Of a stretch of 28,461 bases of DNA, positions 1-28,461 are shown piece by piece. Position 1 is the stretch's first letter. Each line of letters starts with the position of its first letter. The DNA is taken from the NCBI RefSeq assembly GCF_000003605.2, contig NW_003105942.1, positions 1 to 28,461 on the forward strand, read 5' to 3'. Under the pieces are notes generated by a model, which ran no database searches, was not told the DNA's origin, and worked only from the letters and a program-made list of their open reading frames with translations. The position numbers and the translations under genes were made by a program. This stretch comes from Saccoglossus kowalevskii. Lineage: Eukaryota; Hemichordata; Enteropneusta; Harrimaniidae.

Positions 1-3000
1 CATACAACTCACCAGTACAATTGTAATCATCTACCAGTAAATAACCATCCATACATTCACAATAGTATGACCCATTAGTATTAATGCAATTATGATCGCA
101 TTCATGCGTGCCAGGTTGGCATTCATCAATATCTATTATAGACAAAGAATAGTAAAGAGATATAAAAGCAATGAAGTGTAACTTGCAAAGGGCAGGATAT
201 GCATGTATTACGTTGCTAAATTGTAGAATGGTGAAGCTTTGTTTAGGATGGCATTAACACTCACCAGTGCAATTGTAATCATCTGCCAGTAAATAACCAT
301 CCATACATTCACAATAATACGACCCATTAGTATTAATGCAATTATGATCACATTCATGCGTGCCAAGTTGGCATTCATCAATATCTATTATAGACAGAGA
401 ATAGTAAACAGATATAAAAGCAATTAAATGTAACTTCCAAAAAGCAAGCAATTATGATCACATTCATGCGTGCCAAGTTGACATTCATCATTATCTATAA
501 TAGACAAAGCAATGTTATGAGATATAAAAGCAATGAAATGTAACTTGCAGAGTGCATGATATGCATGTATTAGGTTGCTAAGGAGTAGAATGTTGAAGCA
601 ATGTTTAGGATGGCATTAACACTCACTCACCAGTACAATTGTAATCATCTGCCAGTAAATAACCATCCATACATTCACAATAATACGACCCATTAGTATT
701 AATGCAATTATGATCACATTCATGCGTGCCAAGTTTGCATTCATCAATATCTATTATAGACAATGAATAGTAAAGAGATATAAAAGCAATTAAATGTAAC
801 TTGCAAAGGGCAGGATATGCATGTATTACGTTGCTATATTGTAGAACGTTAAAGCAATATTTAGGATGACATTAACACTCACCAGTGCAATTGTAATCAT
901 CTACCAGTAAATAACCATCCATACATTCACAATAGTATGACCCATTAGTATTAATGCAATTATGATCACATTCATTTGTGCCAAGTTGACATTCATCATT
1001 ATCTATAATAGACAAAGCAATGTTATGAGATATAAAAGCAATGAAATGTAGCTTGCAGAGCGCATGGTAGGCATGTATTAGGTTGCTAAGGTGTAGAATG
1101 TTGAAGCAATGTTTAGGATGGCATTACAACTCACCAGTACAATTGTAATCATCTACCAGTAAATAACCATCCATACATTCACAATAATACGACCCATTAG
1201 TATTAATGCAATTATGATCACATTCATGCGTGCCAAGTTGGCATTCATCAATATCTATTATAGACAAAGAATAGTAAACAGATATAAAAGCAATTAAATG
1301 TAACTTGCAAAAAGCAAGCAATTATGATCACATTCATGTGTGCCAAGTTGACATTCATCATTATCTATAATAGACAAAGCAATGTTATGAGATATAAAAG
1401 CAATGAAATGTAACTTGCAGAGTGCATGATATGCATGTATTAGGTTGCTAAGGAGTAGAATGTTGAAGCAATGTTTAGGATGGCATTAACACTCACTCAC
1501 CAGTACAATTGTAATCATCTACCAGTAAATAACCATGCATACATGCACAATAATATGACCCATTTGTATTAATGCAATTATGATCACATTCATTTGTGCC
1601 AAGTTGACATTCATCATTATCTATAATAGACAAAGCAATGTTATGAGATATAAAAGCAATGAAATGTAACTTGCAGAGCGCATGGTAGGCATGTATTAGG
1701 TTGCTAAGGTGTAGAATGTTGAAGCAATGTTTAGGATGGCATTACAACTCACCAGTACAATTGTAATCATCTACCAGTAAATAACCATCCATACATTCAC
1801 AATAGTATGACCCATTAGTATTAATGCAATTATGATCGCATTCATGCGTGCCAGGTTGGCATTCATCAATATCTATTATAGACAAAGAATAGTAAAGAGA
1901 TATAAAAGCAATGAAGTGTAACTTGCAAAGGGCAGGATATGCATGTATTACGTTGCTAAATTGTAGAATGGTGAAGCTTTGTTTAGGATGGCATTAACAC
2001 TCACCAGTGCAATTGTAATCATCTGCCAGTAAATAACCATCCATACATTCACAATAATACGACCCATTAGTATTAATGCAATTATGATCACATTCATGCG
2101 TGCCAAGTTGGCATTCATCAATATCTATTATAGACAGAGAATAGTAAACAGATATAAAAGCAATTAAATGTAACTTCCAAAAAGCAAGCAATTATGATCA
2201 CATTCATGCGTGCCAAGTTGACATTCATCATTATCTATAATAGACAAAGCAATGTTATGAGATATAAAAGCAATGAAATGTAACTTGCAGAGTGCATGAT
2301 ATGCATGTATTAGGTTGCTAAGGAGTAGAATGTTGAAGCAATGTTTAGGATGGCATTAACACTCACTCACCAGTACAATTGTAATCATCTACCAGTAAAT
2401 AACCATGCATACATTCACAATAATATGACCCATTTGTATTAATGCAATTATGATCACATTCATTTGTGCCAAGTTGACATTCATCATTATCTATAATAGA
2501 CAAAGCAATGTTATGAGATATAAAAGCAATGAAATGTAACTTGCAGAGCGCATGGTAGGCATGTATTAGGTTGCTAAGGTGTAGAATGTTGAAGCAATGT
2601 TTAGGATGGCATTACAACTCACCAGTACAATTGTAATCATCTACCAGTAAATAACCATCCATACATTCACAATAGTATGACCCATTAGTATTAATGCAAT
2701 TATGATCGCATTCATGCGTGCCAGGTTGGCATTCATCAATATCTATTATAGACAAAGAATAGTAAAGAGATATAAAAGCAATGAAGTGTAACTTGCAAAG
2801 GGCAGGATATGCATGTATTACGTTGCTAAATTGTAGAATGGTGAAGCTTTGTTTAGGATGGCATTAACACTCACCAGTGCAATTGTAATCATCTGCCAGT
2901 AAATAACCATCCATACATTCACAATAATACGACCCATTAGTATTAATGCAATTATGATCACATTCATGCGTGCCAAGTTGGCATTCATCAATATCTATTA

Positions 3001-6000
3001 TAGACAGAGAATAGTAAACAGATATAAAAGCAATTAAATGTAACTTCCAAAAAGCAAGCAATTATGATCACATTCATGCGTGCCAAGTTGACATTCATCA
3101 TTATCTATAATAGACAACACAATGTTATGAGATATAAAAGCAATGAAATGTAACTTGCAGAGTGCATGATATGCATGTATTAGGTTGCTAAGGAGTAGAA
3201 TGTTGAAGCAATGTTTAGGATGGCATTAACACTCACTCACCAGTACAATTGTAATCATCTACCAGTAAATAACCATCCATACATTCACAATAATATGACC
3301 CATTTGTATTAATGCAATTATGATCACATTCATTTGTGCCAAGTTGACATTCATCATTATCTACAATAGACAAAGCAAGGTTATGAGATATAAAAGCATT
3401 GAAATGTTACTTGCAGAGGGCAGGATATGCATGCATTACGTTGCCAATGTGTAGAATGTTGAAGCAATGTTTAGGATGACATTAACACTCACCAGTGCAA
3501 TAATAATCACCCACCAGTAAATAACCATGCATACATTCACAATAATATGACCCATTTGTATTAATGCAATTATGATCACATTCATGTGTGCCAAGTTGAC
3601 ATTCATCATTATCTATAATAGACAACACAATGTAATGAGATATAAAAGCAATGAAATGTAACTTGCAGAGTGCATGATATGCATGTATTAGGTTGCTAAG
3701 GAGTAGAATGTTGAAACAATTATTAGGATGGCATTAACACTGACTCACCAGTACAATTGTAATCATCTACCAGTAAATAACCATCCATACATTCACAATA
3801 ATATGACCCATTTGTATTAATGCAATTATGATCACATTCATGTGTGCCAAGTTGACATTCATCATTATCTATAATAGACATCACAATGTTATGAGATATA
3901 AAAGCAATGAAATGTAACTTGCAGAGTGCATGATATGCATGTATTAGGTTGCTAAGGAGTAGAATGTTGAAGCAATGATTAGGATGGCATTAACACTGAC
4001 TCACCAGTGCAATTGTAATCATCTACCAGTAAATAACCATCCATACATTCACAATAATACGACCCATTTGTATTAATGCAATTATGATCACATTCATGCG
4101 TGCCAAGTTGACATTCATCAGTATCTATAATAGACAAAGCAATGTTATGAGATATAAAAGCAAGGAAATGTAACTAGCAGAGTGCATGATATGCATGTAT
4201 TACGTTGTTTAGGTGTAGAATGTTGAAGCTATGTTTAGGATGGCATTAACACTCACCAGTGCAATTGTAATCATCCACCAGTAAATAACCATCCATACAT
4301 TCACAATAATACGACCCATTTGTATTAATGCAATTATGATCACATTCATGCGTGCCAAGTTGGCATTCATCAATATCTATTACAGACAAAGAATAGTAAA
4401 GAGATACAAAAGCAATGAAGTGTAACTTGCAAAGGGCAGGATATGCATGTATTACGTTGCTATATTGCAGAATGTAAAGCAATATTTAGGATGACATTAA
4501 CACTCACCAGTACAATTGTAATCATCTACCAGTAAATAACCATCCATACATTCACAATAATACGACCCATTAGTATTAATGCAATTATGATCACATTCAT
4601 GCGTGCCAAGTTGGCATTCATCAATATCTATTATAGACAAAGAATAGAAAACAGATATAAAAGCAATTAAATGTAACTTGCAAAAAGCAAGCAATTATGA
4701 TCACATTCATGTGTGCCAAGTTGACATTCATCATTATCTATAATAGACAAAGCAATGTTATGAGATATAAAAGCAATGAAATGTAACATGCAGAGCGCAT
4801 GGTAGGCATGTATTAGGTTGCTAAGGTGTAGAATGTTGAAGCAATGTTTAGGACTGCATTAACACTCACTCACCAGTACAATTGTAATCATCTGCCAGTA
4901 AATAACCATCCATACATTCACAATAATACGACCCATTAGTATTAATGCAATTATGATCACATTCATGCGTGCCAAGTTTGCATTCATCAATATCTATTAT
5001 AGACAATGAATAGTAAAGAGATATAAAAGCAATTAAATGTAACTTGCAAAGGGCAGGATATGCATGTATTACGTTGTTATATTGTAGAACGTTAAAGCAA
5101 TATTTAGGATGACATTAACACTCACCAGTGCAATTGTAATCATCTACCAGTAAATAACCATCCATACATTCACAATAGTATGACCCATTAGTATTAATGC
5201 AATTATGATCACATTCATTTTTGCCAAGTTGACATTCATCATTATCTATAATAGACAAAGCAATGTTATGAGATATAAAAGCAATGAAACGTAACTTGCA
5301 GAGCGCATGATATGCATGCATTACGTTGCTAAGGTGTAGAATGTTGAAGCAATGTTTAGGATGGCATTAACACTCACTCACCAGTACAATTGTAATCATC
5401 TGCCAGTAAATAACCATCCATACATTCACAATAATACGACCCATTAGTATTAATGCAATTATGATCACATTCATGCGTGCCAAGTTGGCATTCATCAATA
5501 TCTATTATATACAAAGAATAGTAAACAGATATAAAGCAATTAAATGTAACTTGCAAAAAGCAAGCAATTATGATCACATTCATGTGTGCCAAGTTGACAT
5601 TCATCATTATCTATAATAGCCAAAGCAATGTTATGAGATATAAAAGCAATGAAATGTAACTTGCAGAGTGCATGATATGCATGTATTAGGTTGCTAAGGA
5701 GTAGAATGTTGAAGCAATGTTTAGGATGGCATTAACACTCACTCACCAGTACAATTGTAATCATCTACCAGTAAATAACCATCCATACATTCACAATAAT
5801 ATGACCCATTTGTATTAATGCAATTATGATCACATTCATTTGTGCCAAGTTGACATTCATCATTATCTATAATAGACAAAGCAATGTTATGAGATATAAA
5901 AGCAATGAAATGTAACTTGCAGAGCGCATGGTAGGCATGTATTAGGTTGCTAAGGTGTAGAATGTTAAAGCAATGTTTAGGATGGCATTACAACTCACCA

Positions 6001-9000
6001 GTACAATTGTAATCATCTACCAGTAAATAACCATCCATACATTCACAATAATACGACCAATTAGTATTAATGCAATTATGATCACATTCATGCGTGCCAA
6101 GTTGACATTCATCATTATCTATAATAGACAAAGCAATGTTATGAGATATAAAAGCAATGAAATGTAACTTACAGAGCGCATGATATGCATGCATTACGTT
6201 GCTAAGGTGTAGAATGTTAAAGCAATGTTTAGGATGGCATTAACACTCACCAGTACAATTGTAATCATCTACCAGTAAATAACCATCCATACATTCACAA
6301 TAGTATGACCCATTAGTATTAATGCAATTATGATCACATTCATGCGTGCCAAGTTGGCATTCATCAATATCTATTATAGACAAAGAATAGTACAGAGATA
6401 TAAAAGCAATGAAGTGTAACTTGCAAAGGGCAGGATATGCATGTATTACGTTGCTAAATTGTAGAATGTTGAAGCTTTGTTTAGGATGACATTAACACTC
6501 ACCAGTGCAATTGTAATCATCTGCCAGTAAATAACCATCCATACATTCACAATAATACGACCCATTAGTATTAAAGCAAGTATGATCACATTCATGCGTG
6601 CCAAGTTGGCATTCATCAATATCTATTATAGACAAAGAATAGTAAACAGATATAAAAGCAATTAAATGTAACTTGCAAAAAGCATGCAATTATGATCACA
6701 TTCATGCGTGCCAAGTTGACATTCATCATTAACTATAATAGACAACACAATGTTATGAGATATAAAAGCAATGTAATGTTAATTGTAGAGTGCATGATAT
6801 GCATGTATTACGTTGCTGAGGAGTAGAATGTTGAAGCAATGTTTAGGATGGCATTAACACTCGCTCACCAGTACAATTGTAATTATCTACCAGTAAATAA
6901 CCATCCATACATTCACAATAGTATGACCCGTTTGTATTAATGCAATTATGATCACATTCATGCGTGCCAAGTTGACATTCGTCATTATCTATAATAGACA
7001 AAGCAATGTTATGAGATATAAAAGCAATGAAATGTAACTGGCAGAGTGCATGATATGCATGTATTAGGTTGCTAAGGCGTAGAATGTTGAAGCAATGTTT
7101 AGGATGGCATTAACACTCACTCACCAGTACAATTGTAATCATCTGCCAGTAAATAACCATCCATACATTCACAATAATACGACCCATTAGTATTAATGCA
7201 ATTATGATCACATTCATGCGTGCCAAGTTTGCATTCATCAATATCTATTATAGACAATGAATAGTAAAGAGATATAAAAGCAATTAAATGTAACTTGCAA
7301 AGGGCAGGATATGCATGTATTACGTTGCTATATTGTAGAACGTTAAAGCAATATTTAGGATGACATTAACACTCACCAGTGCAATTGTAATCATCTACCA
7401 GTAAATAACCATTCATACATTCACAATAGTATGACCCATTAGTATTAATGCAATTATGATCACATTCATTTGTGCCAAGTTGACATTCATCATTATCTAT
7501 AATAGACAAAGCAATGTTATGAGATATAAAAGCAATGAAATGTAACTTGCAGAGCGCATGGTAAGCATGTATTAGGTTGCTAAGGCGTGGAATGTTGAAG
7601 CAATGTTTAGAATGACATTAACACTCACCAGTGCAATTGTAATCATCTACCAGTAAATAACCATCCATACATTCACAATAGTATGACCCATTAGTATTAG
7701 TGCAATTATGATCACATTCATGCGTGCCAAGTTGGCATTCATCAATATCTATTATAGACAAAGAATAGAAAACAGATATAAAAGCAATTAAATGTAACTT
7801 GCAAAAAGCAAGCAATTATGATCACATTCATGTGTGCCAAGTTGACATTCATCATTATCTATAATAGACAAAGCAATGTTATGAGATATAAAAGCAATGA
7901 AATGTAACTTGCAGAGCGCATGGTAGGCATGTATTAGGTTGCTAAGGTGTAGAATGTTGAAGCAATGTTTAGGATGGCATTACAACTCACCAGTACAATT
8001 GTAATCATCTACCAGTAAATAACCATCCATACATTCACAATAATACGACCCATTAGTATTAATGCAATTATGATCACATTCATGCGTGCCAAGTTGGCAT
8101 TCATCAATATCTATTATAGACAAAGAATAGTAAACAGATATAAAAGCAATTAAATGTAACTTGTAAAAAGCAAGCAATTATGATCACATTCATGTGTGCC
8201 AAGTTGACATTCATCATTATCTATAATAGACAAAGCAATGTTATGAGATATAAAAGCAATGAAATGTAACTTGCAGAGTGCATGATATGCATGTATTAGG
8301 TTGCTAAGGCGTAGGATGTTGAAGCAATGTTTAGGATGGCATTAACACTCACTCACCAGTACAATTGTAATCATCTACCAGTAAATAACCATGCATACAG
8401 TCACAATAGTATGACCCATTTGTATTAATGCAATTATGATCACATTCATTTGTGCCAAGTTGGCATTCATCATTATCTATAATAGACAAAGCAATGTTAT
8501 GAGATATAAAAGCAATGTAATGTAAATTGTAGAGTGCATGATATGCATGTATTAGGTTGCTAAGGAGTAGAATGTTGAAGCAATGTTTAGGATGGCATTA
8601 ACACTCACTCACCAGTACAATTGTAATTATCTACCAGTAAATAACCATCCATACATTCACAATAGTATGACCCGTTTGTATTAATGCAATTATGATCACA
8701 TTCATGCGTGCCAAGTTGACATTCGTCATTATCTATAATAGACAAAGCAATGTTATGAGATATAAAAGCAATGACATGTAACTGGCAGAGTGCATGATAT
8801 GCATGTATTAGGTTGCTAAGGCGTAGAATGTTGAAGCAATGTTTAGGATGGCATTAACACTCACTCACCAGTACAATTGTAATCATCTGCCAGTAAATAA
8901 CCATCCATACATTCACAATAATACGACCCATTAGTATTAATGCAATTATGATCACATTCATGCGTGCCAAGTTTGCATTCATCAATATCTATTATAGACA

Positions 9001-12000: not shown

Positions 12001-15000
12001 ACAGAGAATAGTAAACAGATATAAAAGCAATTAAATGTAACTTCCAAAAAGCAAGCAATTATGATCACATTCATGCGTGCCAAGTTGACATTCATCATTA
12101 TCTATAATAGACAAAGCAATGTTATGAGATATAAAAGCAATGAAATGTAACTTGCAGAGTGCATGATATGCATGTATTAGGTTGCTAAGGAGTAGAATGT
12201 TGAAGCAATGTTTAGGATGGCATTAACACTCACTCACCAGTACAATTGTAATCATCTGCCAGTAAATAACCATCCATACATTCACAATAATACGACCCAT
12301 TAGTATTAATGCAATTATGATCACATTCATGCGTGCCAAGTTTGCATTCATCAATATCTATTATAGACAATGAATAGTAAAGAGATATAAAAGCAATTAA
12401 ATGTAACTTGCAAAGGGCAGGATATGCATGTATTACGTTGCTATATTGTAGAACGTTAAAGCAATATTTAGGATGACATTAACACTCACCAGTGCAATTG
12501 TAATCATCTACCAGTAAATAACCATTCATACATTCACAATAGTATGACCCATTAGTATTAATGCAATTATGATCACATTCATTTGTGCCAAGTTGACATT
12601 CATCATTATCTATAATAGACAAAGCAATGTTATGAGATATAAAAGCAATGAAATGTAACTTGCAGAGCGCATGGTAAGCATGTATTAGGTTGCTAAGGCG
12701 TGGAATGTTGAAGCAATGTTTAGAATGACATTAACACTCACCAGTGCAATTGTAATCATCTACCAGTAAATAACCATCCATACATTCACAATAGTATGAC
12801 CCATTAGTATTAGTGCAATTATGATCACATTCATGCGTGCCAAGTTGGCATTCATCAATATCTATTATAGACAAAGAATAGAAAACAGATATAAAAGCAA
12901 TTAAATGTAACTTGCAAAAAGCAAGCAATTATGATCACATTCATGTGTGCCAAGTTGACATTCATCATTATCTATAATAGACAAAGCAATGTTATGAGAT
13001 ATAAAAGCAATGAAATGTAACTTGCAGAGCGCATGGTAGGCATGTATTAGGTTGCTAAGGTGTAGAATGTTGAAGCAATGTTTAGGATGGCATTACAACT
13101 CACCAGTACAATTGTAATCATCTACCAGTAAATAACCATCCATACATTCACAATAATACGACCCATTAGTATTAATGCAATTATGATCACATTCATGCGT
13201 GCCAAGTTGGCATTCATCAATATCTATTATAGACAAAGAATAGTAAACAGATATAAAAGCAATTAAATGTAACTTGCAAAAAGCAAGCAATTATGATCAC
13301 ATTCATGTGTGCCAAGTTGACATTCATCATTATCTATAATAGACAAAGCAATGTTATGAGATATAAAAGCAATGAAATGTAACTTGCAGAGTGCATGATA
13401 TGCATGTATTAGGTTGCTAAGGCGTAGGATATTGAAGCAATGTTTAGGATGGCATTAACACTCACTCACCAGTACAATTGTAATCATCTACCAGTAAATA
13501 ACCATGCATACAGTCACAATAGTATGACCCATTTGTATTAATGCAATTATGATCACATTCATTTGTGCCAAGTTGGCATTCATCATTATCTATAATAGAC
13601 AAAGCAATGTTATGAGATATAAAAGCAATGTAATGTAAATTGTAGAGTGCATGATATGCATGTATTAGGTTGCTAAGGAGTAGAATGTTGAAGCAATGTT
13701 TAGGATGGCATTAACACTCACTCACCAGTACAATTGTAATTATCTACCAGTAAATAACCATCCATACATTCACAATAGTATGACCCGTTTGTATTAATGC
13801 AATTATGATCACATTCATGCGTGCCAAGTTGACATTCGTCATTATCTATAATAGACAAAGCAATGTTATGAGATATAAAAGCAATGACATGTAACTGGCA
13901 GAGTGCATGATATGCATGTATTAGGTTGCTAAGGCGTAGAATGTTGAAGCAATGTTTAGGATGGCATTAACACTCACTCACCAGTACAATTGTAATCATC
14001 TGCCAGTAAATAACCATCCATACATTCACAATAATACGACCCATTAGTATTAATGCAATTATGATCACATTCATGCGTGCCAAGTTTGCATTCATCAATA
14101 TCTATTATAGACAATGAATAGTAAAAAGATATAAAAGCAATTAAATGTAACTTGCAAAGGGCAGGATATGCATGTATTACGTTGTTATATTGTAGAACGT
14201 TAAAGCAATATTTAGGATGACATTAACACTCACCAGTGCAATTGTAATCATCTACCAGTAAATAACCATCCATACATTCACAATAGTATGACCCATTAGT
14301 ATTAATGCAATTATGATCACATTCATGCGTGCCAAGTTGGCATTCATCAATATCTATTATAGACAAAGAATAGTAAACAGATATGAAAGCAATTAAATGT
14401 AACTTGCAAAAAGCAAGCAATTATGATCACATTCATGTGTGCCAAGTTGACATTCATCATTATCTATAATAGACAAAGCAATGTTATGAGATATAAAAGC
14501 AATGAAATGTAGCTTGCAGAGCGCATGGTAGGCATGTATTAGGTTGCTAAGGTGTAGAATGTTGAAGCAATGTTTAGGATGGCATTACAACTCACCAGTA
14601 CAATTGTAATCATCTACCAGTAAATAACCATCCATACATTCACAATAATACGACCCATTAGTATTAATGCAATTATGATCACATTCATGCGTGCCAAGTT
14701 GGCATTCATCAATATCTATTATAGACAAAGAATAGTAAACAGATATGAAAGCAATTAAATGTAACTTGCAAAAAGCAAGCAATTATGATCACATTCATGT
14801 GTGCCAAGTTGACATTCATCATTATCTATAATAGACAAAGCAATGTTATGAGATATAAAAGCAATGAAATGTAACTTGCAGAGTGCATGATATGCATGTA
14901 TTAGGTTGCTAAGAAGTAGAATGTTGAAGAAATGTTTAGGATGGCATTAACACTCACTCACCAGTACAATTGTAATCATCTACCAGTAAATAACCATGCA

Positions 15001-21000: not shown

Positions 21001-24000
21001 TAACCATCCATACATTCACAATAGTATGACCCATTAGTATTAATGCAATTATGATCACATTCATGCGTGCCAAGTTGGCATTCATCAATATCTATTATAG
21101 ACAAAGAATAGTAAAGAGATATAAAAGCAATGAAGTGTAACTTGCAAAGGGCAGGATATGCATGTATTACGTTGCTAAATTGTAGAATGTTGAAGCTTTG
21201 TTTAGGATGGCATTAACACTCACCAGTGCAATTGTAATCATCTACCAGTAAATAACCATCCATACATTCACAATAGTATGACCCATTAGTATTAGTGCAA
21301 TTATGATCACATTCATGCGTGCCAAGTTGGCATTCATCAATATCTATTATAGACAAAGAATAGTAAACAGATATAAAAGCAATTAAATGTAACTTGCAAA
21401 CAGCATGAAATTATGATCACATTCATGCGTGCCAAGTTGACATTCATCATTATCTATAATAGACAAAGCAATGTTATGAGATATAAAAGCAATGAAATGT
21501 AACTTGCAGAGTGCAAGATATGCATGCATTACGTTGTTATATTGTAGAACGTTAAAGCAATATTTAGGATGACATTAACATTCACCAGTGCAATTGTAAT
21601 CATCTACCAGTAAATAACCATCCATACATTCACAATAATACGACCCATTAGTATTAATGCAATTATGATCACATTCATGCGTGCCAAGTTGACATTCATC
21701 ATTATCTATAATAGACAAAGCAATGTTATGAGATATAAAAGCAATGAAATGTAACTTGCAGAGCGCATGATATGCATGCATTACGTTGCTAAGGTGTAGA
21801 ATGTTAATGCAATGTTTAGGATGGCATTAACACTCACTCACCAGTACAATTGTAATCATCTACCAGTAAATAACCATCCATACATTCACAATAGTATGAC
21901 CCATTAGTATTAGTGCAATTATGATCACATTCATGCGTGCCAAGTTGGCATTCATCAATATCTATTATAGACAAAGAATAGTAAACAGATATAAAAGCAA
22001 TTAAATGTAACTTGCAAAGGGCAGGATATGCATGTATTACGTTGCTAAATTGTAGAATGTTGAAGCTTTGTTTAGGATGACATTAACACTCACCAGTGCA
22101 ATTGTAATCATCTGCCAGTAAATAACCATCCATACATTCACAATAATACGACCCATTAGTATTAATGCAAGTATGATCACATTCATGCGTGCCAAGTTGG
22201 CATTCATCAATATCTATTATAGACAAAGAATAGTAAACAGATATAAAAGCAATTAAATGTAACTTGCAAAAAGCATGCAATTATGATCACATTCATGCGT
22301 GCCAAGTTGACATTCATCATTATCTATAATAGACAACACAATGTTATGAGATATAAAAGCAATGTAATGTAACTTGTAGAGTGCATGATATGCATGTATT
22401 AGGATGCTAAGGAGTAGAATGTTGAAGCAATGTTTAGGATGGCATTAACACTCACTCACCAGTACAATTGTAATTATCTACCAGTAAATAACCATCCATA
22501 CATTCACAATAGTATGACCCGTTTGTATTAATGCAATTATGATCACATTCATGCGTGCCAAGTTGACATTCGTCATTATCTATAATAGACAAAGCAATGT
22601 TATGAGATATAAAAGCAATGAAATGTAACTGGCAGAGTGCATGATATGCATGTATTAGGTTGCTAAGGCGTAGAATGTTGAAGCAATGTTTAGGATGGCA
22701 TTAACACTCACTCACCAGTACAATTGTAATCATCTGCCAGTAAATAACCATCCATACATTCACAATAATACGACCCATTAGTATTAATGCAAATTATGAT
22801 CACATTCATTTGTGCCAAGTTGACATTCATCATTATCTATAATAGACAAAGCAATGTTATGAGATATAAAAGCAATGAAATGTAACTTGCAGAGCGCATG
22901 GTAGGCATGTATTAGGTTGCTAAGGTGTAGAATGTTGAAGCAATGTTTAGGATGGCATTACAACTCACCAGTACAATTGTAATCATCTACCAGTAAATAA
23001 CCATCCATACATTCACAATAATACGACCCATTGGTATTAATGCAATTATGATCACATTCATGCGTGCCAAGTTGACATTCATCATTATCTATAATAGACA
23101 AAGCAATGTTATGAGATATAAAAGCAATGAAATGTAACTTGCAGAGCGCATGATATGCATGCATTACGTTGCTAAGGTGTAGAATGTTAAAGCAATGTTT
23201 AGGATGGCATTAACACTCACCAGTACAATTGTAATCATCTACCAGTAAATAACCATCCATACATTCACAATAGTATGACCCATTAGTATTAATGCAATTA
23301 TGATCACATTCATGCGTGCCAAGTTGGCATTCATCAATATATATTATAGACAAAGAATAGTAAAGAGATATAAAAGCAATGAAGTGTAACTTGCAAAGGG
23401 CAGGATATACATGTATTACGTTGCTAAATTGTAGAATGTTGAAGCTTTGTTTAGGATGACATTAACACTCACCAGTGCAATTGTAATCATCTGCCAGTAA
23501 ATAACCATCCATACATTCACAATAATACGACCCATTAGTATTAATGCAAGTATGATCACATTCATGCGTGCCAAGTTGGCATTCATCAATATCTATTATA
23601 GACAAAGAATGGTAAACAGATATGAAAGCAATTAAATGTAACTTGCAAAAAGCATGCAATTATGATCACATTCATGTGTGCCAAGTTGACATTCATCATT
23701 ATCTATAATAGACAACACAATGTTATGAGATATAAAAGCAATGAAATGTAACTGGCAGAGTGCATGATATGCATGTATTAGGTTGCTAAGGCGTAGAATG
23801 TTGAAGCAATGTTTAGGATTGCATTAACACTCACTCACCAGTACAATTGTAATCATCTGCCAGTAAATAACCATCCATACATTCACAATAATACGACCCA
23901 TTAGTATTAATGCAATTATGATCACATTCATGCGTGCCAAGTTTGCATTCATCAATATCTATTGTAGACAATGAATAGTAAAGAGATATAAAAGCAATTA

Positions 24001-27000
24001 AATGTAACTTGCAAAGGGCAGGATATGCATGTATTACGTTGTTATATTGTAGAACGTTAAAGCAATATTTAGGATGACATTAACACTCACCAGTGCAATT
24101 GTAATCATCTACCAGTAAATAACCATCCATACATTCACAATAGTATGACCCATTAGTATTAATGCAATTATGATCACATTCATTTGTGCCAAGTTGACAT
24201 TCATCATTATCTATAATAGACAAAGCAATGTTATGAGATATAAAAGCAATGAAATGTAACTTGCAGAGCGCATGATATGCATGCATTACGTTGCTAAGGT
24301 GTAGAATGTTGAAGCAATGTTTAGGATGGCATTAACACTCACTCACCAGTACAATTGTAATCATCTGCCAGTAAATAACCATCCATACATTCACAATAAT
24401 ACGACCCATTAGTATTAATGCAATTATGATCACATTCATGCGTGCCAAGTTGGCATTCATCAATATCTATTATAGACAAAGAATAGTAAACAGATATAAA
24501 GCAATTAAATGTAACTTGCAAAAAGCAAGCAATTATGATCACATTCATGTGTGCCAAGTTGACATTCATCATTATCTATAATAGCCAAAGCAATGTTATG
24601 AGATATAAAAGCAATGAAATGTAACTTACAGAGTGCATGATATGCATGTATTAGGTTGCTAAGGAGTAGAATGTTGAAGCAATGTTTAGGATGGCATTAA
24701 CACTCACTCACCAGTGCAATTGTAATCATCTACCAGTAAATAACCATCCATACATTCACAATAGTATGACCCATTAGTATTAATGCAATTATGATCACAT
24801 TCATTTGTGCCAAGTTGACATTCATCATTATCTATAATAGACAAAGCAATGTTATGAGATATAAAAGCAATGAAACGTAACTTGCAGAGCGCATGATATG
24901 CATGCATTACGTTGCTAAGGTGTAGAATGTTGAAGCAATGTTTAGGATGGCATTAACACTCACTCACCAGTACAATTGTAATCATCTGCCAGTAAATAAC
25001 CATCCATACATTCACAATAATACGACCCGTTTGTATTAATGCAATTATGATCACATTCATGCGTGCCAAGTTGACATTCGTCATTATCTATAATAGACAA
25101 AGCAATGTTATGAGATATAAAAGCAATGAAATGTAACTGGCAGAGTGCATGATATGCATGTATTAGGTTGCTAAGGAGTAGAATGTTGAAACAATTATTA
25201 GGATGGCATTAACACTGACTCACCAGTACAATTGTAATCATCTACCAGTAAATAACCATCCATACATTCACAATAATATGACCCATTTGTATTAATGCAA
25301 TTATGATCACATTCATGTGTGCCAAGTTGACATTCATCATTATCTATAATAGACATCACAATGTTATGAGATATAAAAGCAATGAAATGTAACTTGCAGA
25401 GTGCATGATATGCATGTATTAGGTTGCTAAGGAGTAGAATGTTGAAGCAATGATTAGGATGGCATTAACACTGACTCACCAGTGCAATTGTAATCATCTA
25501 CCAGTAAATAACCATCCATACATTCACAATAATACGACCCATTTGTATTAATGCAATTATGATCACATTCATGCGTGCCAAGTTGACATTCATCAGTATC
25601 TATAATAGACAAAGCAATGTTATGAGATATAAAAGCAGGGAAATGTAACTAGCAGAGTGCATGATATGTATGTATTACGTTGCTATATTGTAGAATGTAA
25701 AGCAATATTTAGGATGACATTAACACTCACCAGTACAATTGTAATCATCTACCAGTAAATAACCATCCATACATTCACAATAGTATGACCCATTTGTGTT
25801 AATGCAATTATGATCACATTCATGCGTGCCAAGTTGACATTCATCATTATCTATAATAGACAAAGCAATGTTATGAGATATAAAATCAATGAAATGTAAC
25901 TTGCAGAGCGCATGATATGCATGCATTACGAAGCTAAGGTGTAGAATATTAAAGCAATGTTTACGAACACATTAACACACACCAGTACAATTGTAATCAT
26001 CTACCAGTAAGTAACCATCCATACATTCACAATAGTATGATCCATTTGTATTAATGCAATTATGATCACATTCATGTGTGCCAAGTTGACATTCATCATT
26101 ATCTATAATAGACAAAGCAATGTTATGAGATATAAAAGCAATGAAATGTAACTTGCAGAGCGCATGGTAGGCATGTATTAGGTTGCAAAGGTGTAGAATG
26201 TTGAAGCAATGTTTAGGATGGCATTAACACTCACTCACCAGTACAATTGTAATCATCTACCAGTAAATAACCATTCATACATTCACAATAGTATGACCCA
26301 TTTGTATTAATGCAATTATGATCACATTCATTTGTGCCAAGTTGACATTCATCAGTATCTATAATAGACAAAGCAATGTTATGAGATATAAAAGCAATGA
26401 AATGTTACTTGCAAAGTGCATTATGCATGCATTACGTTGCTAAGATGTAGAATGTTAAAGCAATGTTTAGGATGGCGTTAACACGCACCGGTGCAATTGT
26501 AATCATCTACAAGTAAATAACCATCCATGCATTCACAATAATATGACCCATTTGTATTAATGCAATTTTGATAACATTCATGCAGGTCAAGTTGACATCA
26601 TCATTATCTACATAGACAAAGCAAGGTTATGAGATATAAAAGCATGAAATGTACTTGCAGAGGGCAGGATATGCATGCATTACGTTGCCAATGTGTAGAA
26701 TGTTGAAGCAATGTTTAGGATGACATTAACACTCACCAGTGCAATAATAATCACCCACCAGTAAATAACCATGCATACATTCACAATAATATGACCCATT
26801 TGTATTAATGCAATTATGATCACATTCATGTGTGCCAAGTTGACATTCATCATTATCTATAATAGACAACACAATGTAATGAGATATAAAAGCAATGAAA
26901 TGTAACTTGCAGAGTGCATGATATGCATGTATTAGGTTGCTAAGGAGTAGAATGTTGAAACAATTATTAGGATAGCATTAACACTGACTCACCAGTACAA

Positions 27001-28461
27001 TTGTAATCATCTACCAGTAAATAACCATCCATACATTCACAATAATATGACCCATTTGTATTAATGCAATTATGATCACATTCATGTGTGCCAAGTTGAC
27101 ATTCATCATTATCTATAATAGACATCACAATGTTATGAGATATAAAAGCAATGAAATGTAACTTGCAGAGTGCATGATATGCATGTATTAGGTTGCTAAG
27201 GAGTAGAATGTTGAAGCAATGATTAGGATGGCATTAACACTGACTCACCAGTGCAATTGTAATCATCTACCAGTAAATAACCATCCATACATTCACAATA
27301 ATACGACCCATTTGTATTAATGCAATTATGATCACATTCATGCGTGCCAAGTTGACATTCATCAGTATCTATAATAGACAAAGCAATGTTATGAGATATA
27401 AAAGCAAGGAAATGTAACTAGCAGAGTGCATTATATGCATGTATTACGTTGCTATATTGTAGAATGTAAAGCAATATTTAGGATGACAATAACACTCACC
27501 AGTACAATTGTAATCATCTACCAGTAAATAACCATCCATACATTCACAATAGTATGACCCATTTGTGTTAATGCAATTATGATCACATTCATGCGTGCCA
27601 AGTTGACATTCATCATTATCTAGAATAGACAAAGCAATGTTATGAGATATAAAATCAATGAAATGTAACTTGCAGAGCGCATGATATGCATGCATTACGA
27701 AGCTAAGGTGTAGAATATTAAAGCAATGTTTACGAACACATTAACACACACCAGTACAATTGTAATCATCTACCAGTAAATAACCATCCATACATTCACA
27801 ATAGTATGATCCATTTGTATTAATGCAATTATGATCACATTCATGTGTGCCAAGTTGACATTCATCATTATCTATAATAGTCAAAGCAATGTTATGAGAT
27901 ATAAAAGCAATGAAATGTAACTTGCAGAGCGCATGGTAGGCATGTATTAGGTTGCAAAGGTGTAGAATGTTGAAGCAATGTTTAGGATGGCATTAACACT
28001 CACTCACCAGTACAATTGTAATCATCTACCAGTAAATAACCATTCATACATTCACAATAGTATGACCCATTTGTATTAATGCAATTATGATCACATTCAT
28101 TTGTGCCAAGTTGACATTCATCAGTATCTATAATAGACAAAGCAATGTTATGAGATATAAAAGCAATGAAATGTTACTTGCAGAGTGCATTATGCATGCA
28201 TTACGTTGCTAAGATGTAGAATGTTAAAGCAATGTTTAGGATGGCGTTAACACGCACCGGTGCAATTGTAATCATCTACAAGTAAATAACCATCCATGCA
28301 TTCACAATAATATGACCCATTTGTATTAATGCAATTATGATCACATTCGTGCGTGCCAAGTTGACATTCATCATTATCTATAATAGACAAAGCAATGTTA
28401 TGAGATATAAAATCAATGAAATGTAACTTGCAGAGCGCATGATATGCATGCATTACGTTGC
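1..28461 (-). CDS. Internal part of a giant multi-exon gene of tandem EGF_CA domains (98 usable exons)
   Basis: Seen: 102 full-length exon copies, each a 40-residue six-cysteine domain opening with D-x-D-E-C and carrying C16-x-N18-x4-Y23-x-C25. All but a few have AG acceptors and GT donors, and both ends are phase 1, so splicing rebuilds Asp (G|AT) at each junction. Known: EGF_CA domains in tandem bind calcium at the domain interface and form stiff extracellular rods (fibrillin, fibulin and Notch type). Inferred: a secreted or cell-surface acidic, calcium-stiffened, heavily N-glycosylated rod of at least about 3,900 residues. Notch-type O-fucose and O-glucose consensus sites are absent: only three residues lie between C12 and C16, and there is no C-x-S-x-P-C. 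No signal peptide, transmembrane segment or other domain falls in the window, so the family cannot be named. The whole could instead be a decaying coding-derived satellite; conservation of all cysteines argues against that. Confidence 0.8.
13..750 (-). CDS. EGF_CA exons, 870-bp repeat copy 1
   Basis: Full exons: 13-132 (P7, V34), 265-384 (A34), 631-750 (K6, A34). The relic at 448-494 lies between the second and third. P7 and K6 are the marks of two recurring exon types. The intron after 631-750 starts GTGAGTGAGT, a doubled donor. Bases 3-650 match 1743-2390 without a difference that I can see. Confidence 0.87.
448..494 (-). pseudogene. Truncated EGF_CA exon relic (CTTCC junction form)
   Basis: It keeps the acceptor and the first 47 bases of the exon (residues 1-16), then jumps straight into the middle of an intron. 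The exon's second half, its donor and the intron start are missing, and reading on meets a stop. It is probably skipped, which leaves a 246-bp intron (385-630). All 24 relics have this same structure. Confidence 0.85.
883..1620 (-). CDS. EGF_CA exons, 870-bp repeat copy 2 (divergent)
   Basis: Full exons: 883-1002 (N2, N10, V34), 1135-1254 (V34), 1501-1620 (N2, N10, A26, H29, V34). The relic at 1318-1364 lies before the last one. Spacing is as in copies 1, 3 and 4, but the first exon is an N2/N10 type instead of P7. Exon 1501-1620 is the only one with Ala26 between C25 and C27; all six cysteines remain. Confidence 0.86.
1318..1364 (-). pseudogene. Truncated EGF_CA exon relic (CTTGC-AGCAAG form)
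   Basis: Same breakpoint as the relic at 448-494, but with the commoner intron junction form, which 12 of the 24 relics share. Confidence 0.85.
1753..2490 (-). CDS. EGF_CA exons, 870-bp repeat copy 3
   Basis: Full exons: 1753-1872 (P7, V34), 2005-2124 (A34), 2371-2490 (N2, N10, H29, V34). The relic is at 2188-2234. The cassette is the same as copy 1 except that its third exon is an N10/H29 type, so the exchange point lies inside that exon, after about base 2390. Confidence 0.87.
2188..2234 (-). pseudogene. Truncated EGF_CA exon relic (CTTCC form)
   Basis: Identical to the relic at 448-494, inside 870-bp repeat copy 3. Confidence 0.85.
2623..3360 (-). CDS. EGF_CA exons, 870-bp repeat copy 4
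   Basis: Full exons: 2623-2742 (P7, V34), 2875-2994 (A34), 3241-3360 (N2, N10, V34). The relic is at 3058-3104. About 500 bp (2611-3115) match 1741-2245 exactly by eye; the first difference is in the intron just right of the relic (ACAACAC against ACAAAGC). Confidence 0.87.
3058..3104 (-). pseudogene. Truncated EGF_CA exon relic (CTTCC form)
   Basis: Inside 870-bp repeat copy 4. The intron to its right carries the ACAACAC variant also found near 9602 and 16061. Confidence 0.85.
3493..4124 (-). CDS. EGF_CA exons, three-exon block shared with two distant sites
   Basis: Full exons: 3493-3612 (N2, H29, V34, G35, Y38), 3749-3868 (N2, V34), 4005-4124 (T2, V34). The first loses the usual Asp35 and Asn38, giving G-D-Y-Y before C39. 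The same three exons with their introns recur at 18695-19326 (offset 15202) and 26737-27368. The donor of the second and third is GTGAGTCAGT. Confidence 0.87.
4257..4993 (-). CDS. EGF_CA exons, mixed block
   Basis: Full exons: 4257-4376 (V34), 4508-4627 (V34), 4874-4993 (K6, A34). The relic is at 4691-4737. The step from 4257 to 4508 is 251 bp, one base short in the intron. The K6 exon has the same surroundings as nine other K6 exons in the window and pairs with 23839-23958 at offset 18965. Confidence 0.86.
4691..4737 (-). pseudogene. Truncated EGF_CA exon relic (CTTGC-AGCAAG form)
   Basis: Lies between full exons 4508-4627 and 4874-4993; acceptor intact, donor absent. Confidence 0.85.
5126..5866 (-). 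CDS. EGF_CA exons, copy of the 24.1-24.8 kb block
   Basis: Full exons: 5126-5245 (N2, K9, N10, V34), 5382-5501 (A34), 5747-5866 (N2, N10, V34). The relic is at 5564-5610. Each pairs with 24091, 24347 and 24712 at a constant offset of 18965, including an unusual shortened intron stretch (ATATAAAGC) and a base change in the relic's acceptor tract (ATAGCC). Lys9 is found only in 5126-5245. Confidence 0.86.
5564..5610 (-). pseudogene. Truncated EGF_CA exon relic with altered acceptor tract
   Basis: The acceptor tract reads ATAGCC on the + strand rather than ATAGAC, a mark shared only with the relic at 24529-24575. Confidence 0.85.
5999..6988 (-). CDS. EGF_CA exons, copy of the 22.9-23.7 kb block
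   Basis: Full exons: 5999-6118 (N2, W21, V34), 6251-6370 (V34), 6503-6622 (T15, F17, A34), 6869-6988 (N2, V34, N36). The relic is at 6686-6732. Trp21 keeps an N-x-S sequon. The first three exons and the relic pair with 22969, 23221, 23473 and 23656 at offset 16970. Donor of the last exon is GTGAGC. Confidence 0.86.
6686..6732 (-). pseudogene. Truncated EGF_CA exon relic (AGCATG form)
   Basis: The junction reads AGCATGCAATT, two bases closer to the intact exon than the AGCAAG form. The first exon base is changed next to the acceptor (TTAAC in place of TTATC on the + strand). Confidence 0.83.
7125..9240 (-). CDS. EGF_CA exons, first copy of a 2.1-kb segmental duplication
   Basis: Full exons: 7125-7244 (K6, A34), 7377-7496 (N2, N10, N29, V34), 7629-7748 (T17, V34), 7991-8110 (V34), 8357-8476 (N2, N10, D26, H29, V34), 8613-8732 (N2, V34, N36), 8869-8988 (K6, A34), 9121-9240 (N2, N10, V34). 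Relics are at 7812-7858 and 8174-8220. Every exon start has a partner 5113 bp to the right (12238 to 14234). Confidence 0.87.
7812..7858 (-). pseudogene. Truncated EGF_CA exon relic (CTTGC-AGCAAG form)
   Basis: First of two relics in the 7.1-9.2 kb duplicated segment; its partner is 12925-12971. Confidence 0.85.
8174..8220 (-). pseudogene. Truncated EGF_CA exon relic (CTTGT form)
   Basis: Its neighbouring intron has a unique T at 8164, one of only two differences seen from the partner copy at 13287-13333. Confidence 0.85.
9373..10979 (-). CDS. EGF_CA exons, mosaic block with one acceptor-less exon
   Basis: Full exons: 9373-9492 (A34), 9739-9858 (N2, N10, H29, V34), 9991-10110 (P7, V34), 10242-10361 (V34, no acceptor), 10494-10613 (T15, A34), 10860-10979 (N2, V34, N36). 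Relics are at 9556-9602 and 10677-10723. The last two exons and their relic pair with 22094, 22277 and 22460 at offset 11600. The intron left of 10242 carries a short variant stretch (AAATGTTTAATG) seen nowhere else. Confidence 0.84.
9556..9602 (-). pseudogene. Truncated EGF_CA exon relic (CTTCC form)
   Basis: Belongs with full exon 9373-9492. It is a fragment of the P7 cassette that lacks the P7 exon itself on its left. Confidence 0.85.
10242..10361 (-). pseudogene. Full-length EGF_CA exon without a splice acceptor
   Basis: The coding frame and donor are normal. The + strand right of the exon reads ATATTATAT where other copies read CTATTATAG, so the minus-strand acceptor AG has become AT. 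No other AG lies in the exon's first 25 bases or so. As written it should be skipped, which keeps the frame because the exon is phase 1-1. Confidence 0.75.
10677..10723 (-). pseudogene. Truncated EGF_CA exon relic (AGCATG form)
   Basis: Follows the T15 exon 10494-10613. All AGCATG relics but one (21407) sit next to a T15 exon. Confidence 0.85.
11116..11991 (-). CDS. EGF_CA exons, K6 pair joined to the P7 cassette
   Basis: Full exons: 11116-11235 (K6, A34), 11368-11487 (N2, N10, T18, V34), 11620-11739 (P7, V34), 11872-11991 (A34). The relic at 12055-12101 follows. Exon 11368 has Thr in place of Asn18, so it alone lacks the beta-hydroxylation and calcium-ligand Asn. The P7 cassette matches those at 1, 1741, 2611 and 15568. 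Confidence 0.86.
12055..12101 (-). pseudogene. Truncated EGF_CA exon relic (CTTCC form)
   Basis: Part of the P7 cassette at 11608-12237. Confidence 0.85.
12238..14101 (-). CDS. EGF_CA exons, second copy of the 2.1-kb segmental duplication
   Basis: Full exons: 12238-12357 (K6, A34), 12490-12609 (N2, N10, N29, V34), 12742-12861 (T17, V34), 13104-13223 (V34), 13470-13589 (N2, N10, D26, H29, V34), 13726-13845 (N2, V34, N36), 13982-14101 (K6, A34). Relics are at 12925-12971 and 13287-13333. I see two base differences from the copy at 7.1-9.2 kb (8164 against 13277, 8318 against 13431), both intronic. Confidence 0.87.
12925..12971 (-). pseudogene. Truncated EGF_CA exon relic (CTTGC-AGCAAG form)
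   Basis: Duplicate of 7812-7858 at offset 5113. Confidence 0.85.
13287..13333 (-). pseudogene. Truncated EGF_CA exon relic (CTTGC-AGCAAG form)
   Basis: Duplicate of 8174-8220 at offset 5113. Confidence 0.85.
14234..15447 (-). CDS. EGF_CA exons, run of three relic-bearing composites
   Basis: Full exons: 14234-14353 (V34), 14596-14715 (V34), 14962-15081 (H29, V34), 15328-15447 (N2, N10, H29, V34). Each of the first three is followed by a relic (14417-14463, 14779-14825, 15145-15191), the densest run of relics in the window. The stretch from 14596 pairs with 16958-17553 at offset 2362. Confidence 0.87.
14417..14463 (-). pseudogene. Truncated EGF_CA exon relic (CTTGC-AGCAAG form)
   Basis: First of three relics that alternate with full exons between 14.2 and 15.2 kb. 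Confidence 0.85.
14779..14825 (-). pseudogene. Truncated EGF_CA exon relic (CTTGC-AGCAAG form)
   Basis: Pairs with 17141-17187 at offset 2362. Confidence 0.85.
15145..15191 (-). pseudogene. Truncated EGF_CA exon relic (CTTGC-AGCAAG form)
   Basis: Pairs with 17507-17553 at offset 2362. Confidence 0.85.
15580..16317 (-). CDS. EGF_CA exons, P7 cassette
   Basis: Full exons: 15580-15699 (P7, V34), 15832-15951 (A34), 16198-16317 (N2, N10, V34). The relic is at 16015-16061. Intron markers (GAATGGTGAAGCTTT and CTTCCAAAAA on the + strand) tie it to the 870-bp repeats at the left end of the window. Confidence 0.87.
16015..16061 (-). pseudogene. Truncated EGF_CA exon relic (CTTCC form)
   Basis: Part of the P7 cassette at 15568-16197. 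Confidence 0.85.
16454..17443 (-). CDS. EGF_CA exons, K6 pair plus relic composites
   Basis: Full exons: 16454-16573 (K6, A34), 16706-16825 (N2, N10, V34), 16958-17077 (V34), 17324-17443 (H29, V34). Relics are at 17141-17187 and 17507-17553. The donor of 17324-17443 is GTCAGT rather than GTGAGT, from a single base change inside the doubled-donor form. Confidence 0.86.
17141..17187 (-). pseudogene. Truncated EGF_CA exon relic (CTTGC-AGCAAG form)
   Basis: Right-hand intron carries a unique ACAAACC in place of ACAAAGC. Confidence 0.85.
17507..17553 (-). pseudogene. Truncated EGF_CA exon relic (CTTGC-AGCAAG form)
   Basis: The last relic before the relic-free seven-exon repeats that begin at 17673. 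The intron to its right is already of the seven-exon-repeat kind (AAGGAAATG). Confidence 0.85.
17640..20440. repeat. Seven-unit 1773-bp higher-order repeat, 1.6 copies
   Basis: Exon starts 17685, 17937, 18193 and 18443 repeat at 19458, 19710, 19966 and 20216 (all +1773). Marks are TACGAAGCTAAGG, TTTACGAACACATT and GGCGTTAACACGCACCGG on the + strand. The second copy breaks off after its fourth exon. Confidence 0.9.
17685..19326 (-). CDS. EGF_CA exons, seven-exon higher-order repeat, copy 1
   Basis: Full exons: 17685-17804 (N2, V34), 17937-18056 (N2, V34; donor GTGTGT), 18193-18312 (T2, N10, N29, V34), 18443-18562 (N2, D8, L9, Y13, Q14, V34; donor GTGCGT), 18695-18814 (N2, H29, V34, G35, Y38), 18951-19070 (N2, V34), 19207-19326 (I34). 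There are no relics. All exons but the last have N2 or T2. Y13-Q14 replaces the D-H found in nearly all other domains. Confidence 0.87.
19458..20839 (-). CDS. EGF_CA exons, partial second copy of the seven-exon repeat, then divergent exons
   Basis: Full exons: 19458-19577 (N2, V34), 19710-19829 (N2, V30, V34; donor GTGTGT), 19966-20085 (T2, N10, N29, V34), 20216-20335 (N2, D8, L9, Y13, Q14, V34; donor GTGCGT), 20468-20587 (N2, V21, I34, E35, E36; donor GTGAGA), 20720-20839 (K6, I34). The first four sit 1773 bp from those at 17685-18443. Exon 20468 is the most divergent in the acidic loop. Val30 removes the Gly of the usual C-x-x-G-Y. Confidence 0.86.
20972..22579 (-). CDS. EGF_CA exons, mosaic block
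   Basis: Full exons: 20972-21091 (V34), 21224-21343 (T17, V34), 21586-21705 (N2, V34; donor GTGAAT), 21842-21961 (T17, V34), 22094-22213 (T15, A34), 22460-22579 (N2, V34, N36). Relics are at 21407-21453 and 22277-22323. The run 22094-22460 equals 10494-10860 at offset 11600. Confidence 0.86.
21407..21453 (-). pseudogene. Truncated EGF_CA exon relic (AGCATG form, further mutated)
   Basis: The junction reads AGCATGAAATT. C16 of the residual half-domain would be changed, consistent with a relic that is no longer under constraint. Confidence 0.82.
22277..22323 (-). pseudogene. Truncated EGF_CA exon relic (AGCATG form)
   Basis: Duplicate of 10677-10723 at offset 11600. Confidence 0.85.
22716..22836 (-). 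pseudogene. Frameshifted 121-bp EGF_CA exon
   Basis: One extra A in GCAAATTATG (other copies GCAATTATG). On the minus strand the frame breaks after N15 and meets TAA two codons later. The left part is of the K6/A34 kind and the right part of the N2/N10 kind, so the extra base sits at the join of two exon types. Skipping it would keep the gene in frame. Confidence 0.8.
22969..23592 (-). CDS. EGF_CA exons, copy of the 6.0-6.7 kb block
   Basis: Full exons: 22969-23088 (N2, V34), 23221-23340 (V34, acceptor lost), 23473-23592 (T15, A34). The relic at 23656-23702 follows. The partner of 23221 at 6251-6370 keeps its acceptor, so the loss either arose after this duplication or was brought in by exchange with the 10.2-kb copy. 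Confidence 0.85.
23221..23340 (-). pseudogene. Full-length EGF_CA exon without a splice acceptor (second case)
   Basis: The + strand at 23341 begins ATATTATAG, so the acceptor AG is AT. This is the same base change as at 10362, but without the second change (final AG to AT) found there. The coding sequence is otherwise ordinary (I2, V34). Confidence 0.75.
23656..23702 (-). pseudogene. Truncated EGF_CA exon relic (AGCATG form)
   Basis: Pairs with 6686-6732 at offset 16970 but has the normal TTATC first exon bases. Confidence 0.85.
23839..25087 (-). CDS. EGF_CA exons, copy of the 4.9-5.9 kb block
   Basis: Full exons: 23839-23958 (K6, A34), 24091-24210 (N2, N10, V34), 24347-24466 (A34), 24712-24831 (N2, N10, V34), 24968-25087 (N2, A34). 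The relic is at 24529-24575. The first four exons pair with 4874, 5126, 5382 and 5747 at offset 18965. Exon 24968 is a chimera: its left part is the A34 form, its right part the form with the GTCATTAT end. Confidence 0.86.
24529..24575 (-). pseudogene. Truncated EGF_CA exon relic with altered acceptor tract
   Basis: Shares the ATAGCC acceptor mark and offset 18965 with 5564-5610. Confidence 0.85.
25224..25599 (-). CDS. EGF_CA exons, two-exon lead-in to the seven-exon repeat
   Basis: Full exons: 25224-25343 (N2, V34) and 25480-25599 (T2, V34). They match the last two exons of the seven-exon repeat (18951 and 19207; 26993 and 27249), with the same 507-bp distance to the next repeat start. They therefore look like the tail of a further repeat copy whose other exons were lost or replaced. 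Confidence 0.86.
25731..27368 (-). CDS. EGF_CA exons, seven-exon higher-order repeat in the right-hand block
   Basis: Full exons: 25731-25850 (N2, V34), 25983-26102 (N2, V34; donor GTGTGT), 26239-26358 (T2, N10, N29, V34), 26489-26607 (119 bp, frameshifted), 26737-26856 (N2, H29, V34, G35, Y38), 26993-27112 (N2, V34), 27249-27368 (T2, V34). The repeat length is 1769 bp, four less than the copy at 17685, accounted for by four single-base deletions near 26.6 kb. Confidence 0.86.
26489..26607 (-). pseudogene. Frameshifted 119-bp EGF_CA exon of the Y13-Q14 type
   Basis: Against 18443-18562 and 20216-20335, one T is missing in the CATTCATC stretch that encodes E4-C5, so the frame breaks at the first cysteine and ends in a stop. 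Three more single-base losses lie in the adjacent intron up to about 26655, so this may be a local sequence error rather than a true mutation. Confidence 0.75.
27500..28377 (-). CDS. EGF_CA exons, start of another seven-exon repeat copy
   Basis: Full exons: 27500-27619 (N2, V34), 27752-27871 (N2, V34; donor GTGTGT), 28008-28127 (T2, N10, N29, V34), 28258-28377 (N2, V34; donor GTGCGT). They pair with 19458 to 20216 at offset 8042. The last exon keeps the left half and donor of the Y13-Q14 type but has the common D13-H14 right half, so an exchange point lies near 28340. Past 28377 only intron remains. Confidence 0.86.

Follow-up and report, generated by a model that had tools for sequence, protein, structure and literature searches.

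Satellite-like arrays are usually deemed non-coding, and gene-finding and assembly programs often mask them or break them up. The present locus of Saccoglossus kowalevskii raises the question of whether a sequence with this architecture can be part of a gene. The window, i.e., the whole stretch of DNA analyzed here, is the complete contig C85 (28,461 bp) of a genome of 572,110,611 bases in 4,830 contigs. A blastn search with the exon as the query identified 126 units on its minus strand, 102 full-length and 24 truncated. Each full-length unit consists of a 120-nt EGF_CA exon and an intron of approximately 130 bp. Since the window spans an entire contig, it is filled by the array from end to end, and both of its ends are assembly breaks inside the array. 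A preliminary description had the array leaving the window at both ends; it does reach both, but these ends are merely where the contig breaks off.

The units are spaced by 252 bp (47 times), 256 bp (42 times), or 110 bp (22 times), with 14 other values between 109 and 257 bp; the spacing of 110 bp follows truncated units. Self-identity of the window peaks at shifts of 252, 256, and 870 bp. Recent copying of larger segments is evident from 19 ungapped pairs (score threshold 600), each with more than 99.3% identity and jointly covering 70% of the window, the longest of which extends over 2,135 bp with 99.9% identity. The shifts among these pairs include 870, 1,769, and 1,773 bp. The satellite-like array of exon–intron monomers that had been described is thus confirmed. 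As usable, we counted exons with an AG acceptor, a GT donor, exactly 120 nt, six cysteines, and no stop, and 98 of the 102 full-length copies qualify, which makes the earlier "about 98 of 102" exact. Among these 102 copies, 43 different exon sequences occur, which translate into 29 different peptide readings, of which two are broken; the 27 usable peptides share 85–98% identity with the first one. A long antisense reading frame was considered and rejected, since all four ORFs of at least 75 amino acids in the window lie on the minus strand. A phage and plasmid search over the first 8,000 of the 28,461 window bases gave no match, nor did Rfam at its gathering thresholds.

Table 1. Positions of array features in the window (C85) and of the exons at the 5′ junction in C216.
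Feature	Contig	Position	Strand	Remarks
Tandem array of EGF_CA exon–intron units	C85	1..28461	-	102 full-length + 24 truncated; whole contig filled
Typical usable exon	C85	24347..24466	-	120 nt, phase 1-1, AG/GT, 40-residue calcium-binding EGF domain
Truncated unit, 1 of 24	C85	24529..24575	-	acceptor + first 47 exon nt fused to 3′ part of next intron
Broken copy	C85	26489..26608	-	altered exon start with stops; no AG
Acceptor AT instead of AG	C85	23221..23340	-	full-length copy
Frameshift copy, 1-nt insertion	C85	22716..22836	-	one extra base
Acceptor AT instead of AG	C85	10242..10361	-	full-length copy
Longest recent segmental copy, 2,135 bp	C85	7079..9213		99.9% identical to 12192-14326
870-bp higher-order repeat	C85	1156..2493		99.5% identical to 2026-3363
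Four sushi exons	C216	277,282-279,573	same strand as array	upstream of array
EGF exons 1 and 2	C216	280,515-280,634 and 280,823-280,936	same strand as array	upstream of array
Array exon 1	C216	281,345-281,464	strand as sushi/EGF exons	directly after EGF exons

Two further contigs carry the array. C216 (286,956 bp) runs into it at about base 281,203 and breaks off within it, with 23 full-length exons, and C2146 (48,895 bp) shows it at both ends. The figures for C2146 cover 31,014 of its 48,895 bases, both ends included, with three gaps between; this part contains 125 full-length exon matches, whose spacings are all 251–257 bp except across the three gaps. The full-length exons counted in C85, C216, and C2146 amount to 250 (102 + 23 + 125). 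Scaling C2146 from the part covered to the whole contig yields 194–197 exons there, and hence an estimated total of about 320 exons in about 83 kb. Usable exons make up 21 of the 22 assessable copies in C216 and 109 of the 118 in the covered part of C2146, where a GC donor was scored as broken and one C216 match cut by the contig end and seven C2146 matches (gap bases or contig end) were set aside. A 35-place pattern occurs at 294 places genome-wide, while its reversed control occurs at none; C216 holds 21 and C85 holds 100, and the remaining 173 agree with the ~180 scaled for C2146, so that very little of the array is probably located outside these three contigs. Among the matches listed (the best 1 of 4, 150 of 695, and 2 of 4 candidates, and the first 100 of the 294 pattern places), the search for a 3′ flank gave no contig beyond these three, and a unique flank beside the array is present only in C216. 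The whole of C85 and the 31,014 bases of C2146 contain none.

The exon–intron nature of the monomer, as previously proposed, was borne out by its phase 1-1 organization, its AG/GT boundaries, and a Pfam match. With one exon peptide joined three times as the query, EGF_CA is recognized in three stretches (107 bits; cut-off, 27 bits; E = 5.6e-31). The peptide follows the pattern D-x-D-E-C...C...C-x-N-x4-Y-x-C-x-C...C-T, and the calcium consensus of EGF_CA domains is [DN]-x-[DN]-[EQ] ... [DN]-x4-[YF]. This consensus together with six cysteines is found in 98 of 100 copies in C85, 22 of 22 in C216, and 115 of 116 in C2146, a count that omits 2 of 102, 1 of 23, and 9 of 125 copies, respectively, because of wrong length, gap bases, or their position as the last unit of a contig. 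Among 237 stop-free copies, the residues D1 (237), D3 (235), E4 (237), N18 (236), and Y23 (237) are almost invariant, and cysteines are kept in 1,420 of 1,422 places. An N-x-S site at residues 20–22 is kept in 226 of 238 copies (100, 22, and 104 by contig). A single residue separates the last cysteine from the first ligand of the next domain. In fibrillin, this one-residue linker spacing gives rise to stiff rods with nearly 3 nm per domain. By this analogy, the 98 usable exons of the window would add ~3,900 residues, roughly a quarter of a micrometre. A phmmer search against the chains of solved structures placed NELL2, NEL, ADGRE5, and LRP2 closest to the window domain, with fibrillin-1 further down.

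Satellites are recognized by a long head-to-tail array with higher-order repeats, which the window has, and by a non-coding sequence free of protein-level constraint, which it does not have: the ratio of nonsynonymous to synonymous diversity (piN/piS) in C85 is 0.150 (block bootstrap 0.131–0.169), as opposed to 1.92 and 0.83 in the shifted frames. The underlying nonsynonymous, synonymous, and intron diversities are 0.0273, 0.1824, and 0.1145 in C85 (99 stop-free exons and 75 simple introns), 0.0321, 0.2084, and 0.1092 in C216 (22 exons), and 0.0274, 0.1117, and 0.0791 in the part of C2146 covered (116 exons). Copies of wrong length, with a stop or gap bases, or forming the last unit of a contig were excluded (3 of 102, 1 of 23, and 9 of 125, respectively). 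C216 gives nearly the same ratio (0.154 vs. 1.54 and 0.81 in the shifted frames), and C2146 shows a weaker signal (0.245, with an interval of 0.196–0.280, vs. 0.974 and 0.462). When every distinct variant enters the count only once, so that shared history weighs less, the ratios are 0.27 in C85 (1.26 and 1.29 in the shifted frames), 0.27 in C216 (0.97 and 1.03), 0.54 in C2146 (0.84 and 0.61), and 0.47 for the three contigs pooled (0.78 and 0.86).

The introns provide a yardstick. The preliminary description considered them to be as near-identical as the exons, which is incorrect: the mean pairwise difference in the window is 11.5% for introns (75) and 5.4% for exons (99), and intron diversity is about four times the nonsynonymous diversity. 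This mismatch is the best evidence that selection, and not only homogenization, makes the protein uniform. In a neutral simulation in which the exons drift at the intron rate, 13% of the copies remain usable and protein identity to the consensus is 83%, as compared with the observed 96% (98/102) and 95.5%; the simulation models the copies as independent, so that only its mean is informative. Together with the selection ratios and the invariant ligands and cysteines, these values indicate that the array copies still code for protein or did so until very recently. Judging from its sequence, the window is thus a coding array that is subject to selection at the protein level and contains segments of recent duplication. 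Of the expansion and homogenization previously suggested, the recent copying of large segments stands, while homogenization alone does not suffice, since selection keeps the protein uniform. Overall, the earlier observation is confirmed, and its interpretation is partly supported.

A link to a gene is provided by C216, in which the array is preceded by sushi and EGF exons (Table 1). All seven exons at this junction (Sushi1–4, EGF1–2, and array exon 1) have a length divisible by three, AG/GT boundaries, and phase 1-1; hence, the frame runs straight into the array. The junction therefore presents one defining feature of a coding exon VNTR, namely a coding exon plus intron repeated in frame inside a gene. 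In the joined C216 exon peptides, Pfam identifies Sushi in four stretches (3.4e-23), along with EGF and EGF_CA, and gives no match to a TB domain. Sushi3–4 with EGF1–2 match at at least 89% only in C216, the next best being 64% (among the best 150 of 1,170 candidates). Neither the exon expected before sushi1, with the signal peptide, nor any part of the gene beyond the array was found. Detachment of the array from any gene with a start and an end had been named as the outcome that would speak against the coding interpretation; at the 5′ end the array is not detached, and this half of the concern is removed. We infer that C85 belongs to the C216 gene.

Further upstream, C216 contains two ORFs (C216:250769-251098 and C216:257021-257332) that, by eye, resemble a transmembrane segment followed by a cytoplasmic tail; they share 45% identity over the matched part and have no Pfam match. 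A genome search with these ORFs as a guide to the 3′ end of the gene returned these two and no third. At C216:272882-273379, overlapping open frames encode short peptide repeats in tandem (in one frame similar to YRHIRYIVI), which probably represent a simple minisatellite.

The divergence among units is informative about how the array evolves. The 76 simple-intron units of C85 are ~9.5% apart on average at any separation (0.090–0.105 in all bins). Such a flat relationship, combined with long blocks of more than 99% identity, suggests that multi-unit blocks were moved by segment duplication rather than by exchange mainly between neighbours. The truncated units retain 47–49 of the 120 nt, one being trimmed to 45 by the aligner. 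They were considered as usable mini-exons and rejected: AG is kept in all 24, but the exon's own donor end is missing. Their junction is of one kind, with five close variants (12, 6, 4, 1, and 1), and is confined to C85, with no truncated unit in the array sequence of C216 or in the covered part of C2146. The simplest explanation for these units is a single deletion that multiplied when it was copied together with adjacent units.

Other EGF-like sequences were observed elsewhere in the genome. At C4174:57578-57811 (minus strand), an EGF-like match lies in a frame that, according to the search output, stays open for 19,801 residues (~59 kb), and those at C175:55165-55485 lie in an open frame of 6,010 residues. 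At C1295:180735-191415, EGF-like matches recur at ~3.82-kb steps, which suggests a second tandem block of EGF exons. In the mitochondrial contig C4830 (17,037 bp), COX1 lies on the minus strand; it reads TGA as Trp, contains neither AGA nor AGG, and has a single AAA codon, located at a conserved Lys. Its eight ATA codons align with Ile (five) and with Leu or Val (three), and none with Met, in two vertebrate-type chains. PMC3121625 gives the mitochondrial code of S. kowalevskii with AUA as Ile, AAA as Lys, and AGG absent, and describes a COX1 inversion in the gene order. On the opposite strand, an ND1-like C-terminus, recognized by eye, stops right next to the 3′ end of COX1. The two frames have opposite orientations, in agreement with the inversion as reported there (PMC3121625). 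The mitochondrial code and the orientation of COX1 together suggest a Saccoglossus-like acorn worm.

Taken as a whole, the window is probably an internal piece of one very repetitive gene, in which a sushi/EGF 5′ part is followed by a selected EGF_CA exon–intron array. Such a gene would begin with sushi and ordinary EGF exons and continue, presumably in one transcript, with array units of mostly 252–256 bp. Each unit could be added, lost, or skipped without a frame shift, so that unequal crossing over and segmental duplication would be free to change the copy number, while purifying selection would eliminate copies in which the cysteines, the calcium ligands, or the frame are damaged. The predicted product is a long, calcium-stiffened, and probably N-glycosylated extracellular rod or spacer behind a sushi–EGF head.

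How far this gene extends depends on the relation among the three contigs. The array of C216 could be coding while C85 and C2146 are separate blocks elsewhere, either paralogous genes or a detached ex-coding satellite. Such an arrangement would account for the lack of a unique flank in C85 and in the covered part of C2146, for the character of C2146 as a distinct, more uniform subfamily (units 6.4% apart on average, and no compared unit closer than 4.8% to C85), and for the lack of a confident end overlap between contigs. Indeed, joining C216 to C85 by overlap was rejected as proof of contiguity, the best end-to-end match between the 5′ end of C85 and the end of C216 being 93.7% over 1,677 bp. 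Yet, for 18 of the 22 C216 units, the most similar unit is located in C85, for which reason C85 most likely continues the C216 gene, as far as unit similarity can tell. The two contigs also have exact stretches of 862, 656, and 516 bp in common and about equal selection ratios, and a unique flank beside the array is found, among the matches listed, only in C216; we therefore regard separate blocks as unlikely. C2146 could lie further inside this array or represent a different locus, and the three contigs, which come from one assembly, may include alleles. The contig boundaries also invite the suspicion that a few real copies were expanded or rearranged by the assembler, since C85 and C2146 start and end inside the array, C216 ends in it, and repeats of more than 99% identity are hard to assemble. 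The 43 distinct exon sequences among 102 copies and the occurrence of block-specific markers, for instance the truncated units, point instead to real long arrays and render an artefact quite improbable.

Two other interpretations concern the function of the copies. The higher-order, satellite-like architecture, the 24 truncated units, and the few broken ones would suit a non-coding satellite in an intron of the sushi/EGF gene, its units being unused fossils of a former EGF exon. This is extremely improbable in view of the low piN/piS in the coding frame but not in the control frames, the 96% of usable copies where 13% would be expected without selection, and an intron diversity four times the nonsynonymous one. 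Alternatively, the usable exons might form a cassette of alternative exons that varies the length or sequence of a recognition protein between tissues or individuals. Any subset of symmetric phase 1-1 exons stays in frame, and sushi domains, which are common in recognition proteins, occur in the N-terminal part. However, the copies encode 29 peptides among 102, with the usable ones all close to the first, so that variation at the protein level is suppressed, the opposite of diversifying selection, and we consider a cassette improbable. We return, then, to the repetitive sushi/EGF gene. In its fullest form, it would be one gene with ~320 tandem units in ~83 kb, encoding a rod that exceeds 10,000 residues and becomes longer or shorter through unequal crossing over; to this form we give slightly less than an even chance. 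If true, it would rank with the largest intragenic exon–intron repeats, and natural populations would carry alleles of different length. If the copy number varies between individuals, the length of an extracellular protein would be linked directly to satellite-style turnover. As every one of the hundreds of copies comes with an intron for comparison, purifying selection and inter-copy exchange become measurable within one gene.

The literature searched, which leaves most subscription journals outside, contains no description of this array, and nothing on S. kowalevskii together with calcium-binding EGF; comparable systems are nevertheless known. Each unit of human LPA kringle IV type 2 (KIV-2) holds exons with their introns. 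Its coding units lie in tandem inside one gene and vary in copy number, as may those of the present array; reported there, however, are kringle units of 5.6 kb in at most ~40 copies, whereas here a cbEGF exon forms units of mostly 252–256 bp, in an estimated ~320 copies, with an intron barely longer than the exon. Fibrillin-type proteins also contain runs of cbEGF domains, and the window domain matches fibrillin-1 chains in phmmer; however, its best matches are NELL2, NEL, ADGRE5, and LRP2. Fibrillin modules are diverged rather than near-copies, and in fibrillin and LTBP the cbEGF runs are interrupted by TB (8-Cys) domains. Higher-order satellite arrays share the monomers, the higher-order repeats, and the segments of more than 99% identity, but most monomers here carry a usable exon kept by selection. 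Drosophila dumpy is likewise a giant EGF-rich extracellular protein, with more than 300 EGF modules, although the repeats reported to evolve in concert are non-EGF and lie in one large exon, whereas in the present array every EGF domain has an exon and an intron to itself. Precedents thus exist both for the repetition of coding units (LPA KIV-2) and for concerted evolution in giant EGF proteins (dumpy); the present array combines both at the scale of hundreds of 250-bp units, in which a satellite-like sequence seems to hold a gene's main exon.
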